Source: an uncultured Craurococcus sp.
GTDB taxonomy: Bacteria > Pseudomonadota > Alphaproteobacteria > Acetobacterales > Acetobacteraceae
Reading direction: 5' to 3'
Assembly: GCA_902805545.1 (NCBI GenBank)
Contig: CADCTD010000178.1
Location: 1 to 64,000, forward strand
DNA length: 64,000 nt
Position 1 is the first letter of the stretch, and each line of letters begins with the position of its first letter. The notes under the pieces are model-generated. The model was not told the origin of the DNA, ran no database searches, and worked only from the letters and a program-made list of their open reading frames with translations. The position numbers were made by a program, and so were the translations under genes. This document shows positions 1,517 through 40,470 of the stretch, piece after piece.

Positions 1517-2131
1517 CTAGGGGCTGCGCTCAGGCAGGACCAGCCGGTGCGGATCGTCGGCCGGCAGGATCGGCCGGATATAGTCGCGCGACTTCCATTC
1601 CGGCGCGACCTGGCTGCCATCCGGCCGCGGCAGATAGGCCGAGGGTTCGCCGGCCCCGAGATCGGGGATGTAGCGCGGGCAGTTGGGAAAGATGTCCGTC
1701 ACCGCGACGCTCACCAGCCGCCGCGCCCCGGGAATGCCGGCAAGGCGGGCGGCATCCTCGACCAGCGCCGCATGGCCGCGCAGGCGAAGCCGCAGCGAGC
1801 GGCCGTCGAAGGCGATGAAGAGCATGCCGATTGCGGGGCTGACGGCGATGTTCCCCAAGCTGAGATACATCGAGTTGCCGTCGTAATCGGGGAATTCCAG
1901 CGCGGCCGGGCCGGTGACGCGGACGAAGCCCGGCGGCCCGCCCTTGAAGCTGCAATCCACCGCGCCCTCGGCCGCGGTGGCGAGGAAGAAGAAGGGCGCC
2001 GCCTCGATCATCGACACATGCTCGGGCAGGAAATGGTCCTGCCGGCGCCGCGCCTCCAGCGTATCCGCCACGCGGCGGCCGTCGAAGCGGTCCTGCAGGG
2101 CGCGGTTGCCGGCGTGGAACAGGTGCGACAT
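1517..2131 (-). CDS. Pyridoxamine 5'-phosphate oxidase-family split-barrel flavoprotein
   Basis: 204 residues from ATG at 2131 (MSHLFHAGNRALQD). It carries family signatures of the FMN-binding split barrel: FLATAAEGAVDCSFKGG near residue 45, GNIAVSPAIGMLF, and the late PNCPRYIP motif. Proteins of this type bind FMN or another cofactor and are usually of unknown substrate; true PNP oxidase activity cannot be assumed. The ribosome binding site GGGAGA lies five bases before the ATG, inside a perfect 20-base palindrome (2137-2156), so initiation could depend on RNA folding. The aminotransferase gene follows 28 bases downstream on the same strand. A longer upstream frame exists but would run into the repeat at 2165-2270. 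Confidence 0.85.
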   Translation of the reverse strand: MSHLFHAGNRALQDRFDGRRVADTLEARRRQDHFLPEHVSMIEAAPFFFLATAAEGAVDCSFKGGPPGFVRVTGPAALEFPDYDGNSMYLSLGNIAVSPAIGMLFIAFDGRSLRLRLRGHAALVEDAARLAGIPGARRLVSVAVTDIFPNCPRYIPDLGAGEPSAYLPRPDGSQVAPEWKSRDYIRPILPADDPHRLVLPERSP

Positions 2132-2156: not shown

Positions 2157-2164
2157 AGCCTAGA

Positions 2165-2270
2165 GCAAACTCCGATCAGGCGGAGGCGCCTGATCGGAGT
2201 AATTTGCCCGACCAAGCAACAGGCTAGAGCGGGTTCCGTTCGCCTTGGCTCACGGAACCCGCTCTAGCCT
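2165..2270 (+). repeat. Two-hairpin dispersed element, copy A
   Basis: Two inverted repeats in tandem. The first has 14-base arms (2169-2182 and 2187-2200) around a 4-base loop. The second has perfect 19-base arms (2221-2239 and 2252-2270) around a 12-base loop. The block 2165-2239 aligns without gaps to the reverse strand of 29049-29123, with 61 of 75 positions identical. The second hairpin recurs at 39963-40011. It lies just past the end of the suf operon, so it could end transcription or protect the 3' end of the mRNA. Confidence 0.85.
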
Positions 2271-2276
2271 ACAGGC

Positions 2277-2645
2277 TCAGACGTGGAAGCTCTCCCCGCA
2301 GCCGCACCGCCCCTTCTCGTTCGGGTTGGTGAAGGTGAAGCCGGCCGACATGGACTTCTGCTCGTAATCCATGGTGGTGCCGATCAGGAACAGGCTCGCC
2401 TTGCGGTCCACCAGCACGGTGACATCCTTGTCGGTGACACGCTCATCGGTCGGCTCCGGCGCGTCGACCCAGGAAAGGTCATAGGACAGGCCGGAACAGC
2501 CCTTGGTCTTGACCCCGATGCGCAGCAGCCGCCCGGCCTCGCCGGCGGCATAGAGGGCGCGCAGCCGGTCGGCCGCGGCATCGGTGAGCTGCATCAGCGG
2601 CGGCAGGGCGCGGCGGGGGCGTTTGGTCTCGATCGTGGTGCTCAT
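2277..2645 (-). CDS. sufA: A-type iron-sulfur carrier protein (SufA/IscA/ErpA family)
   Basis: 122 residues, standard for the family. The three conserved cysteines are present: one in KTKGCSGLSY near residue 50 and two in the C-terminal CGCGESF. A-type proteins accept a cluster from the SufBCD scaffold and pass it to client apoproteins in the cytoplasm. This is the last gene of the suf operon, 10 bases after sufT, and is followed by the two-hairpin element at 2165-2270. The N-terminal 15 residues are basic and variable. Whether it acts as SufA or ErpA cannot be read from sequence; operon position favours SufA. Confidence 0.95.
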   Translation of the reverse strand: MSTTIETKRPRRALPPLMQLTDAAADRLRALYAAGEAGRLLRIGVKTKGCSGLSYDLSWVDAPEPTDERVTDKDVTVLVDRKASLFLIGTTMDYEQKSMSAGFTFTNPNEKGRCGCGESFHV

Positions 2646-20625: not shown

Positions 20626-21000
20626 ATGCCGGGACGCGCCCTGGCTTCCATCACCCTCGTCCTCGGCCTCGCCGCCTGCTCGCCCCCGCCGCCCGCCCGC
20701 ATCGCCGCCGAGCCCCCGTCCCGCGGCGGCTGCGAGGGCGAGTTGCAGGTGGTCAACGCCTCCTCCCGCACGGTGGACCGACTTTTCCTCGCCCGGCTCT
20801 CGCTGGAAGGCTGGGGCAATGACCGGCTCGGGCAGGAGGTCCTGCGCCCCGGCCGCAGCGCCCGCTACCGCGCGACGGCCAGTGGCCGGCAGGATGTCCG
20901 CGTCGTCTGGGCCGATGGCCGTGCCGTCGAGCTGCGCCAGGTCGACCCCTGCGCCACAGGCACCATCCGCGTCGAGGATGGCGGGCTGAAGGCGGGCTAA
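20626..21000 (+). CDS. Predicted lipoprotein, second of two tandem paralogues
   Basis: 124 residues. Signal peptide with lipobox LAAC near residue 18, a Pro/Ala linker, then VVNASSRTVDRLFLAR, GWGNDRLG, VRVVWADGRAVELRQVDPC and IRVEDG, matching the upstream gene motif by motif. The shared pattern (NASS, LxLA, GWGxDxLG, VxWxxGxAxELRxVDxCAT, IxxxDG) shows a tandem duplication. Function unknown; the fold looks like a compact beta sandwich held by one disulfide. Its TAA overlaps the recX stop on the other strand. Confidence 0.8.
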   Translation: MPGRALASITLVLGLAACSPPPPARIAAEPPSRGGCEGELQVVNASSRTVDRLFLARLSLEGWGNDRLGQEVLRPGRSARYRATASGRQDVRVVWADGRAVELRQVDPCATGTIRVEDGGLKAG

Positions 21001-28739: not shown

Positions 28740-29024
28740 ATGAAGAGCCTCGTCCTGCCCCTCGCCGCGCTGTCCCTCACCGCCTGCATGGTTCGCGTGC
28801 CGGTGAGCGAGCAGCCGTCCCGCGCCGTCTATTCCCAGGCCTCGCCCTATGCCGCACCGCTGCCGCAGAACGGCTATGTGCAGCAGGCCCCGGCCGATCC
28901 CTACTGCGCCGAGGCGGTCGGCGAGGCGCAGGACGCCGCCGCCATCGCCTCGACGACCGGCCGCGGCCGGGATGCCGGCCGGGCCGGGCGCACCGAGCAG
29001 CAGGCCCGGCGCGCCTGCCGCTAG
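28740..29024 (+). CDS. Small predicted lipoprotein
   Basis: 94 residues. The signal peptide MKSLVLPLAALSLTAC ends at lipobox LTAC, Cys 16. The mature part is short and polar, with two more cysteines (DPYCAEAV and the penultimate Cys), which could form a disulfide. The last third is rich in Arg, Gly and Ala. The stop TAG is part of the hairpin arm of repeat copy B, so the repeat supplies the end of the gene. Function unknown. Confidence 0.7.
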   Translation: MKSLVLPLAALSLTACMVRVPVSEQPSRAVYSQASPYAAPLPQNGYVQQAPADPYCAEAVGEAQDAAAIASTTGRGRDAGRAGRTEQQARRACR

Positions 29025-29123
29025 AGCGATCTCTGTTCGACCTGGCTCACGGAATCCGCTCTAGCCTGTTGTCTGGCCGAGCGGATTACCCCGACCAGGT
29101 GCTTCCACTTGGTCGGAGTTTGC
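29021..29123 (-). repeat. Two-hairpin dispersed element, copy B
   Basis: Reverse-strand copy of the element at 2165-2270. Over 29049-29123 it aligns ungapped with 61 of 75 bases identical, and all 14 differences are transitions. In the first hairpin two base pairs change on both sides and keep pairing. The loop of the second hairpin is nearly the reverse complement of copy A's loop, as if flipped. The element lies between convergent genes and contains the stop of the gene at 28740-29024. Confidence 0.85.
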
Positions 29124-29198
29124 CCTGGACCGTGATTCCAGGGGCCGGCACGACCGGAGGCGTGATCCGCGGAACGCAACGACAAGCCGGATCTCGGC

Positions 29199-29837
29199 CT
29201 AGCCTTCCATCGAACCGCGCTGCCCGCCGATCATCGCCAGGAACTCGCGCCGGGTGGAGGCATCGTCGCGGAAGGCGCCCAGCATCCGGCTCGTCACCAT
29301 GGTGACCCCCGGCTTGTGGATGCCGCGCGTGGTCATGCACTGGTGCGCCGCCTCGATCACCACGGCGACGCCCTTCGGCTTCAGCACCTCGTTGATGCAG
29401 TTCGCCACCTGCGCGGTCAGCTTCTCCTGGATTTGCAGCCGCTTGGCATAGACCTCGAGCACCCGCGCCAGCTTGCTGATGCCGACCACGCGGCCGGCCG
29501 GCAGATAGGCGACATGCGCCCGGCCGATGATCGGCACGACATGGTGCTCGCAATGGCTCTCGAGGCGGATGTCGCGCAGCACCACCATCTCGTCATAGCC
29601 ATCCGTCTCCTCGAAGGATCGGGCGAGCAGCTCCACCGGGTCGACATCGTAGCCGGCGAAGAACTCCTCATAGGCGCGGACGACGCGGGCCGGGGTGTCG
29701 ACCAGCCCCTCGCGGTCCGGGTCGTCGCCGGTCCAGCGCAGCAGGGTGCGGACAGCGGCCTCCGCCTCCTCCCGGCTTGGCCGGCCCTCGAAGCTGGCCT
29801 TGGTGTCGATGACATGGTTAGGCGTCTGGATATTCAC
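29199..29837 (-). CDS. folE: GTP cyclohydrolase I (FolE)
   Basis: 212 residues from GTG 29837, chosen for GGGGA eight bases upstream; ATG 29882 would add 15 residues. Zinc ligands lie in [21 protein letters not shown] near residue 97 and in the [10 protein letters not shown] region. [20 protein letters not shown] is the conserved core. It makes dihydroneopterin triphosphate, the first step of folate synthesis. All active-site residues are present, including the cysteine near residue 165. Single gene that converges on the lipoprotein. Confidence 0.96.
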
Positions 29838-29931
29838 GATGAGGATCCCCAAGGCTCGCGGGCCATTGACCCAGTATCGCACTCGGACATGGGGCCAGTC
29901 TACGAATCTGCAATGGTTCGAAGCGGGACTA

Positions 29932-38732: not shown

Positions 38733-39959
38733 ATGCATCTGACCCGTCGCGCCGCGCTCGGCGCCACCGCTGGCCTGCTCGCCGCACCCGCCCTCCGCGC
38801 CCAGACCGCGGACGTCATCCGCATCGGCGTGCTGACCGACCTCGCCGGCCCCTATCGCGACGTGACGGGCCCCACCTCCGTCGCCTGCGTCCGCCAGGCG
38901 GTCGAGGAGTACACCGCGGCGCGCCCCGGCCTTCGCGTGGAGGTCATCGCCGCCGACCACCAGAACAAGCCGGATGTCGGCATCAACACCGTCCGCCAGT
39001 GGTTCGACCAGCGCGGCGTCGACGTTGTCACCGATGTCGGCAACAGCGCCATCGCCCTCGGCATCAACCCGGTCTGCGTCGAGAAGGACAAGGTCCACCT
39101 CAACGCCTCCGCCGGCACCTCGGACCTCACCGGCCGTGCCTGCACGCCGAACTCGATCCACTGGTCCTACGACACCTGGTGCCTGTCCAATACCTCAGGC
39201 ACCGCGCTGACCAAGGCGGGCGGCGACCGCTGGTACTTCATCACCGCCGACTACGCCTTCGGCCATGCGATCGAGCGCGACACCACCCGCTTCATCGAGG
39301 CGGCCGGCGGCAAGATGATCGGCGCCTCCCGCTATCCCTTCCCGCAGACCACGGATTTCTCGGCCTTCCTGCTGCAGGCGAAGGCCTCGGGCGCCAAGGT
39401 GCTCGGCCTCGCCATGGCCGGCGACGACCTGGTGAACTGCGTGAAGCAGGCGCAGGAATTCGGCCTCACCCGCAGCATGAAGCTCGCCGCCATCATCGGC
39501 TCCATCACCGGCGTCAATGCCGCAGGCCTGCAGACGATGCAGGGGATGTACATCGCCGAGACTTTCTGGTGGGACCTCGACGACCGCACCCGCGCCTTCA
39601 CCCGGCGCGTGCAGCAGAAGCTCCCCGCCGGCGTCTTCCCCAACTACGTCCACGCCGCCAACTACAGCGGCATCCTCCACTACCTGAAGGCCGTCGAGGC
39701 CCTCGGCATCGCCCGCGCCAAGGCGAGCGGCCGCGAGGTCGTGGCGCAGATGAAGCGCATGCCGACGGATGACGACGCCTTCGGCCAGGGCTCGATCCGC
39801 GAGGATGGCCGCAAGATCCACCCCTCCTACCTGCTCGAGGTGAAGAAGCCCGGCGAGAGCCGCTATCCCGGCGATGTCTACCGCCTCGCCGCCACCGTCC
39901 CGGCGGACCAGGCCTTCCGTCCGCTCGCCGAGGGCGCCTGCCCGATGGTCCGCAGCTAG
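38733..39959 (+). CDS. Periplasmic binding protein of a branched-chain amino acid-type ABC transporter
   Basis: 408 residues, AAGGGAG upstream. The N-terminus has a Tat-type signal (LTRRAALGATAGLLAAPALRA). Mature protein starts DVIRIGVLTDLAGPYRDVTGPTS, the type I fold of LivJ-like proteins; NAGTSDLT-like NASAGTSDLTGRACTPN forms the ligand cleft. Such proteins here bind a wide range of acids or amides. No permease or ATPase genes follow, so it must share a transporter. It is 61 bases after the decarboxylase-like gene and may bring in its substrate or a precursor. Confidence 0.92.
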   Translation: MHLTRRAALGATAGLLAAPALRAQTADVIRIGVLTDLAGPYRDVTGPTSVACVRQAVEEYTAARPGLRVEVIAADHQNKPDVGINTVRQWFDQRGVDVVTDVGNSAIALGINPVCVEKDKVHLNASAGTSDLTGRACTPNSIHWSYDTWCLSNTSGTALTKAGGDRWYFITADYAFGHAIERDTTRFIEAAGGKMIGASRYPFPQTTDFSAFLLQAKASGAKVLGLAMAGDDLVNCVKQAQEFGLTRSMKLAAIIGSITGVNAAGLQTMQGMYIAETFWWDLDDRTRAFTRRVQQKLPAGVFPNYVHAANYSGILHYLKAVEALGIARAKASGREVVAQMKRMPTDDDAFGQGSIREDGRKIHPSYLLEVKKPGESRYPGDVYRLAATVPADQAFRPLAEGACPMVRS

Positions 39960-39962
39960 GGC

Positions 39963-40011
39963 AGGCTGGGGCGGGTTCCGTGAGCCGGGTCGAACGGAAG
40001 CCGCCCTAGCC
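39963..40011 (-). repeat. Second hairpin of the dispersed element alone, copy C
   Basis: Arms 39963-39981 and about 39994-40011 with a 12-base loop. It matches the second hairpin of the element at 2221-2270. The loop is in the same orientation as copy A when read leftward. The first hairpin is missing. It lies between two convergent genes and provides the TAG stop of the CHAP gene (40006-40008). Confidence 0.75.
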
Positions 40012-40470
40012 CGGATGCACGAAGCCATAGGCCGGATAGGCCGTGGCGCCATAGCCGCTCACCGGCGGATACCAGACCCGGATCAGGGACCAGTCGTTCC
40101 CCGGCGAGACGTCGAGCACCGGCTGGTCCCGCGCCACCCGCCCCTTGCCGCGGCCCGAGGCCCAGTTGGCATGGTCGACGCGGATCTCCCGCGCCGAGAC
40201 CACGCGCGCGACGATGGAGACATGCCCCTGCGGCAGCCGCGCGGTGCGCATCATCACCAGCACGCTGCCGGCCCGCGGCACCCGGCCCCGCGCATAGGCC
40301 GCGCCGCCCTCCCACCATTGCCAGGCATCGCCGCGGATCGGCAGGCCGGTCCGCGCCCGCACATAGGGCACGCAGCTCCAGTCCCCAGCGCCATCCCCGC
40401 CGGAGCGTGGCGCCCGCGCCGTCCCGCAGGCGGCAAGCGCGAGCAGCGCCAGCAGCATCACCCATCGCAT
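40006..40470 (-). CDS. CHAP-domain lipoprotein (putative amidase/endopeptidase)
   Basis: 154 residues from ATG 40470. Signal peptide MRWVMLLALLALAAC with the lipobox at Cys 15. The CHAP fold follows: catalytic Cys in GDWSCVPYVRARTG near residue 33, then PRAGSVLVMM, and His in GHVSIVARV near residue 81, with DHANW completing the site. CHAP enzymes cut peptidoglycan stem peptides or cross-links; as a lipoprotein it would act in the periplasm. Its stop lies within repeat copy C. Confidence 0.85.
   Translation of the reverse strand: MRWVMLLALLALAACGTARAPRSGGDGAGDWSCVPYVRARTGLPIRGDAWQWWEGGAAYARGRVPRAGSVLVMMRTARLPQGHVSIVARVVSAREIRVDHANWASGRGKGRVARDQPVLDVSPGNDWSLIRVWYPPVSGYGATAYPAYGFVHPG

Follow-up and report, generated by a model that had tools for sequence, protein, structure and literature searches.

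The CcrM-associated intergenic repeats (CIR; Chen & Shapiro 2003) of Caulobacter, Brucella and other alphaproteobacteria are the described elements closest to the one treated here (PMC2229807, PMC10969869). CIR have been known since 2003, and the passages on them in a 2007 review left both mobility and function open: terminal inverted repeats (TIRs) were given as absent, the target-site duplication as unknown and the mechanism of mobility as still to be ascertained (PMC2229807). A 2024 review describes CIR as strictly intergenic, and neither 'IS630' nor 'CTAG' occurs in its main text (PMC10969869). Among the titles and abstract openings listed in searches of an open-access library, no printed link of CIR to IS630 or CTAG was found. 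The IS630 family is described as having TA targets in a paper whose reference list contains the title 'Preferential transposition ... to TA in the 5'-CTAG-3' sequence' (PMC2170065). Among other short repeats, BOX elements are stated to encode the stop codon of 36 genes, and RUP to go with IS630-Spn1, in the passages of PMC3049150 dealing with them.

The window, a stretch of 64,000 nucleotides of an uncultured Craurococcus sp. (Acetobacteraceae), contains three members of a dispersed family with a repeat unit of 108 bp. The family is best explained as a CIR-like, non-autonomous IS630-family MITE whose target rule places copies at stop codons, a reading to which a probability of about 0.83 is assigned. 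The features of the window that bear on this are as follows.

2160-2267, plus strand: full element, copy 1 (BLAST and covariance-model matches, alignment A1)
2163-2209, plus strand: hairpin 1 of copy 1 (alignment A1)
2210-2223, plus strand: linker of copy 1 (alignment A1)
2224-2267, plus strand: hairpin 2 of copy 1 (alignment A1)
29021-29128, minus strand: full 108-bp element, copy 2 (E 3.9e-15; 105.2 bits; alignment A1)
39956-40009, plus strand: deletion derivative, hairpin 1 lost and hairpin 2 kept (borders from sequence; 49.9 bits)
1517-2131, minus strand: gene flanking copy 1, PNPOx_N family, start 28 bp from the element
2277-2645, minus strand: gene flanking copy 1, Fe-S_biosyn family (Pfam), stop codon 9 bp from the element
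29021-29024, plus strand: element end CTAG with the TAG stop of the gene at 28740-29024 (plus strand)
29199-29882, minus strand: gene flanking copy 2, GTP cyclohydrolase I, 3' end 70 bp from the element
39956-39959, plus strand: element end CTAG with the TAG stop of the gene at 38733-39959 (plus strand), Peripla_BP_6
40006-40009, minus strand: element end CTAG with the TAG stop of the gene at 40006-40458 (minus strand), CHAP domain

A sequence-only reading of the window had aligned 2165-2239 with the reverse complement of 29049-29123 over 75 gapless bases, 61 of them identical and all 14 differences transitions, and this alignment was reproduced exactly. Its end at 2239 is due to hairpin 2, which in copy 1 has the opposite orientation to that in the other 28 rows of A1: identity to the consensus is 41/44 as reverse complement and 36/44 in forward orientation. 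Recombination or re-mobilisation of a single arm could be the source of the flip. The inverted arm (2224-2267) has CTAGAGC on both flanks. The two double changes in hairpin 1 to which the same reading drew attention do exist (alignment columns 22/29 and 17/35), but each is found in just one of 29 copies. Hairpin 2, which was thought to stand alone at 39963-40011, is indeed kept there, but as part of a deletion derivative with the left end CTAGGGC and terminal CTAGs at 39956 and 40006; the covariance model placed its match at 39929-40009, and the borders were taken from the sequence. Copy 1 lies between two minus-strand genes, past the stop of one and ahead of the start of the next. A chance match is excluded, as copy 1 used as query finds other copies at E values down to 5.6e-29, and copy 2 at the value listed above.

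BLASTN with a window copy returned 67 matches in the window's own genome (G000), counting reverse matches of hairpin 2, and a covariance model built from 29 copies found by sequence search (alignment A1) returned, at E <= 0.01, 78 matches in G000 and 51 in one of the sister genomes G001-G006 (G005). Matches also extend across related genomes, to 90 of 150 genomes of the host family and 15 of 289 in a sample of the class, the own genome being counted in both, so that the expectation of many further copies was borne out. Among the matches listed in these two surveys, model positions 1-108 are covered. The hairpin-1 pattern is present in records of Belnapia mucosa and B. rosea, Belnapia being a member of the Alphaproteobacteria. 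No element match was found in the plasmids searched; an Rfam scan of the window gave no family at gathering score, and a scan around one G000 copy gave a single chance-level match (E 0.54). Divergence of the 29 full G000 copies from their consensus averages 11.8% (range 4.6 to 20.4%). Copies group by genome in G000 and G005: 92% of 49 copies have their nearest neighbour in their own genome, compared with 51% after shuffling. In genome G088, the 15 copies examined differ from one another at few positions only and have distinct flanks, which points to a recent burst of activity.

Some copies are associated with other repeats. Four G088 copies share a second palindromic repeat in their surroundings, which contains GGAATC and is found in the right flank of L263, in the left flanks of L265 and L271, and near L261. 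It also occurs in genome G163 (L320:1126-1228), matches the model weakly (48 bits in L320) and is perhaps a sister CIR type. In two G000 copies, L058 (C165:101236-101328) and L055 (C120:11441-11508), hairpin 2 is swapped for another palindrome or cut by an apparent IS end. An IS abuts the hairpin-2 end in four G005 copies (L079, L074, L063 and L069), the transposase at L079 belonging to the IS1182 family, and in 9 of 15 G088 copies (L261, L262, L264, L267, L269-L271, L273 and L274) the hairpin-2 end is abutted by IS-like ends that start similarly (GTGTCGGATTGG). Because CTAG flanks the abutting IS on both sides in the three G005 loci read, this IS seems to take the element's CTAG as its target.

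The element ends, CTAGAGC[AA/GG]NYTCCG, resemble those of IS630-family transposons found in G000, G005 and G167, three of the five genomes tested. A search for a partner with a 17-base end pattern, one mismatch being allowed, also matched G000:C154:2154 and G005:C1:4734968, both of which are right ends of IS630-family transposons. The G000 transposon is 1057 bp long with ends CTAGGGCAAAATCCG and CTAGAGCAGAATCCG; its right end at L283, CTAGAGCAGAATCCGATCA, is identical to the left end of the element at 17 of 21 bases. The G005 transposon (L288) is 1054 bp long and carries CTAGAGCGGTTTCC at both ends. Two reading frames lie around a run of eight A in the G000 transposon, and its transposase would probably be made by frameshifting. 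Both frames are best matched by the IS630 model NF033545, the second above the cut-off, and Pfam finds HTH_Tnp_IS630 and DDE_3, the latter being the sole DDE_3 match in G000. Altogether, 4 of 30 DDE_3 loci examined are IS630 transposons with such ends on both sides (one in G000, one in G005 and two in G167). No such transposon was found among the 8 of 21 DDE_3 matches examined in G118, nor among all five DDE_3 matches of G088, the genome with the fresh burst, where the loci are ended by contig ends. Two other kinds of partner were rejected. For an IS5-type partner (DDE_Tnp_1), 79 matches were obtained in G000 and G005; 20 loci were examined, 14 of them bounded by inverted repeats, and among the best pairs listed none was like the element beyond about the first seven bases. 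For an autonomous copy with identical long ends, the end-pattern matches listed for G000 and G005 contained no gene-sized pair.

Among the best 53 of 68 cross-genus rows (alignment A2), 38 have TA at both ends, L259 and L278 in this count being the same copy. Their outer bases are C..G in 22, T..G in 12, A..G in 2 and C..A in 2, and none of the 38 has a direct 4-mer repeat besides CTAG. As judged from these outer bases and from the empty sites, the target duplication is most likely TA, mostly within CTAG. A 4-bp CTAG duplication is disfavoured, as ends other than CTAG are never direct repeats. The base outside TA is T in 12/38 at the hairpin-1 end, and its counterpart A occurs in only 2/38 at the hairpin-2 end; this asymmetry may possibly reflect an orientation rule of insertion.

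Under the preferred reading, the element would borrow the IS630 enzyme of a larger transposon for its movement. The enzyme would recognise the ends (TA)GAGC...GCTC(TA) and insert at TA, mostly in CTAG, with TA being duplicated. As each strand of the transposon starts with G, TAG would be rebuilt at both borders when the TA used as target belongs to a stop codon, and a gene ending at the target, or two convergent genes with a 4-bp CTAR overlap, would keep their frames; insertions elsewhere in coding sequence would be lost. Source copies would need the two-hairpin fold, whether for mobilisation or for host tolerance, and resident copies would decay neutrally. Visible in the DNA itself are the IS630-like ends, CTAG borders, empty sites, stop-codon borders and lineage-specific amplification from which this scheme is drawn.

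Insertion was assessed at 20 of 69 sites (C151 and 19 others that score at least 85 bits and have a long gene near the border) using orthologs in G001-G006; L141, which repeats L138, was left out of the flank comparison. A model match at the site is lacking in 91 of the 96 orthologous gene ends, and five are filled (L135, L163, L173, L212 and L231). Both flanks could be aligned in 70 rows, two of them filled. Among the other 68, the difference is exactly 4 bases in only 12 and ranges up to hundreds of bases in the remainder, which counts against an IS630-family MITE. Clean empty sites read CTAG in L149, L150 and L146 and CTAA in L177, L187 and L229. At C170:63061, G000 has CTAA[element]CTAC and both G005 and G006 read CTAG; at C124:47356, G000 has CTAG[element]CTAG and G001 reads CTAG; and at C93:122495, G000 has CTAA[element]CTAG and three genomes read CTAA. 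The ortholog stop lies at the same place in 60 of 72 rows read at the 16 sites with a stop-codon border in the query, and at the stop position of the G000 gene in 73 of 88 rows over all 20 sites. Stops in the 88 rows are TAG in 41, TGA in 35 and TAA in 12, and the stop type varies among relatives at 11 of the 16 border sites. TGA in 24 of the 72 rows at these sites also counts against the preferred reading. At C121:3573 (5/5 relatives) and C170:87134 (2/2), the relatives' stop is TGA, leaving no TA to insert into, and under TA targeting an earlier change of the stop to TAG must therefore be assumed. The confidence given above was lowered slightly because of these TGA sites and because partners were not found in two of five genomes.

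Gene context was examined for 69 of the 78 G000 matches, leaving out three reverse matches overlapping a copy and six weak ones, with genes called by a codon-model gene finder trained on the examined loci. The 3'-end bias of the family, which the sequence-only reading had seen in three copies, is strong: 44 copies lie between convergent genes, 14 between tandem and 5 between divergent ones, and 6 are at contig edges. Within the examined loci, 43 of 62 junctions with an element are convergent, compared with 39 of the 342 without one. At 53 of 104 facing 3' ends in G000, gene and copy overlap by exactly 4 bases, with the stop codon inside the terminal tetranucleotide; the stops concerned are TAG in 44, TAA in 6 and TGA in 3. 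TAG makes up 66 of all 104 facing stops, compared with 89 of 341 elsewhere (p about 1e-11). The 4-base border occurs at both sides in 11 G000 copies. It was also found at 27 of 41 facing ends in G005 (30 of 51 matches used) and at 37 of 76 in other genera and families, the latter count covering 63 copies of which several come from the same genomes. None of the 69 copies lies wholly within a predicted gene; three overlap a gene by 68, 105 and 107 bases, and many by the 4-base stop border. A 4-bp convergent overlap CTAA without an element is present in the window at 20997-21000 and resembles some of the empty sites in relatives.

CTAG itself is rare. In 435 kb outside elements, 111 CTAG sites were observed against 1124 expected from base composition, of which 42 are in-frame stops, 46 are intergenic and 23 lie within genes. 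In the window, 22 were counted against a mean of 76 in dinucleotide shuffles, 7 of the 22 being in the three element copies; this depletion of only about 3.5-fold is a point against the preferred reading. Copies that target CTAG and are lost from the inside of genes would therefore be found at stop codons and in spacers, and target choice together with purging explains most of the 3'-end bias. Because the element seems to insert at TA in CTAG, which is often a stop codon, and brings its own TAG, the bias needs no terminator. Copies go beyond this expectation, moderately for the presence of at least one stop border (23 of 33 full copies compared with 42 of 88 free CTAG sites outside CDS, p = 0.04) and clearly for double-stop borders (6 of 33 compared with 1 of 88, p = 0.002). 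Target choice alone may thus be insufficient for the convergent excess, which leaves room for an extra advantage, or a preferential use, of convergent overlaps. Convergent copies are not significantly better preserved (p = 0.10).

Hairpin 1 has a 20-pair stem with a 3-base bulge and the apex GGAATC; hairpin 2 has a stem of 15 pairs, interrupted by a mismatch, and a loop of 12 bases; and a 14-base linker lies between the arms. This two-arm architecture is the same in 68 model-fitted cross-genus rows, 66 of which are distinct. The earlier suggestion that pairing is under selection holds between genera but hardly within G000. Between genera, 33 of 35 pairs show double changes, with 363 double-change cells versus 99.5, a covariation score of 0.459 versus 0.166, and 93.5% of cells paired versus 77.4% in shuffled and 30-37% in slid controls; the rows were picked by the model and aligned to it, so that the effect size leans upward, although the slid controls still reach only 30-37%. 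For the same reason, namely that a pairing-favouring model chose and aligned the rows, the cross-genus excess of G.T (70 versus 37) was not used. Within G000, 89.2% of cells are paired versus 88.5% in shuffled ones (sd 0.3), double-change cells number 17 versus 10.3 (sd 2.8) and pairs changed on both sides 10 versus 6.1, and G.T and A.C mismatches are balanced (53 versus 61, p = 0.51). As pairing is barely above shuffled and the mismatches are balanced, there is no sign of selection at the RNA level among resident copies. A paired change, G-C to A-T, separates even the G000 consensus from that of G005. The fold used is the one described above; RNAalifold on A1 gives a partly different fold with 24 pairs and a covariation term of 0. 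Because covariation is strong between genera and slight within G000, the constraint is placed in lineages that keep spreading, being not detectable in resident copies.

Depletion of the pentanucleotide GANTC is expected where it is methylated by CcrM. In coding DNA, 231 were counted against 985 expected from composition, and the depletion is weaker in intergenic DNA (72 versus 132). The G000 consensus contains a single GANTC, at the apex of hairpin 1. Its conservation parallels that of the pairing: it is near the apex in 53 of the 68 cross-genus rows, in place in 13 of 29 G000 residents, and lost from both full copies of the window. A bolder and rather improbable extension of the preferred reading is that CIR are IS630 MITEs in which the fold and the apex GANTC are part of transposition, a hemimethylated apex behind the replication fork licensing one move per cell cycle and stop-codon homing making the moves near harmless. 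If true, CcrM-licensed mobilisation would explain why the fold and GANTC are kept in source lineages and decay in residents.

The main rival to an IS630-family MITE placed by its target is a bidirectional terminator or mRNA 3'-end stabiliser that is selected between convergent genes, whatever its origin. Such a role would account for the convergent excess at element junctions and for the covariation between genera, and the predicted folds of copies 1 and 2 are stable on both strands (z-scores of -8.4 and -10.2 for copy 1, -5.3 and -4.3 for copy 2, and -2.4 for the derivative on the plus strand only). The best fold of copy 2, however, retains hairpin 1 and not hairpin 2 on either strand, and a scan for T-run terminators gave one weak match, on the minus strand in the region of copy 1, and none in the regions of copy 2 and the derivative. 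Pairing within the genome that hardly exceeds shuffled, balanced G.T and A.C mismatches, relatives that mostly do without the element at the same gene ends, and convergent copies kept no better than others also speak against it. The sequence-only reading had put this role forward; the resident copies lend it no support, and although possible as a by-product, it is a somewhat unlikely explanation of the family. Between-genus covariation is not required by ordinary DDE transposition, which counts against the preferred reading as well, and the double changes might instead have arisen at the level of DNA palindromes, by template switching or conversion of one arm by the other. In favour are the near-perfect palindromy of both arms, the slight excess of paired changes within G000 and the inverted hairpin 2 of one copy. 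Against it, the hairpin-2 mismatches and the hairpin-1 bulge are found again in different genera, as read by eye, and GANTC stands near the apex in 53 of 68 aligned rows despite lying off the symmetry centre of the stem. This alternative to structural selection is judged unlikely. Far less probable still is a REP/REPIN-type element moved single-stranded by a Y1 (RAYT) transposase. Hairpins do lie close to both ends, and the termini of GTAG REPs are described as often providing the TAG stop of flanking ORFs in the part of PMC3733652 that concerns them, but the element ends are IS630-like and Y1_Tnp matched none of four genomes tested, while 5 of 14 control genomes matched; a RAYT/REPIN origin was rejected on this absence.

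What distinguishes the element from the systems described so far? Going by the descriptions of CIR in PMC2229807, the element fits as CIR-like: both are about 110 bp long and consist of two long stem-loop arms with a linker between them, one arm carrying GANTC at its terminal loop, and both have TA termini and alphaproteobacterial hosts. CIR are also intergenic; the element resembles them to the extent that no copy examined lies wholly in a gene, although three overlap one deeply and many by the 4-base border. Unlike CIR as there described, the element has IS630-linked ends, empty sites showing insertion and many stop-codon borders. Together, IS630 ends, targeting of TA in CTAG and stop-codon borders provide a simple reason for a 3'-end and convergent-gene bias that could be mistaken for evidence of a terminator, and selection on source copies is set apart from drift in residents. 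Going by the available descriptions of the other three systems, RUP of Streptococcus pneumoniae (107 bp, IS630-Spn1) is likewise a MITE related to IS630, equal in size and with TA in its target, but pairs its two ends together, whereas the element here has two independent arms, a preference for CTAG and stop-codon borders. The Correia/NEMIS elements of Neisseria are also MITEs (107-155 bp) with TA termini and structured transcripts, but have 24-bp TIRs, a proposed processing by RNase III and another host group. The GTAG/CGTC REPs share palindromy, a convergent or 3' bias and TAG stops often drawn from their termini (PMC3733652), but consist of 20-40 bp units and have a RAYT link without counterpart here.
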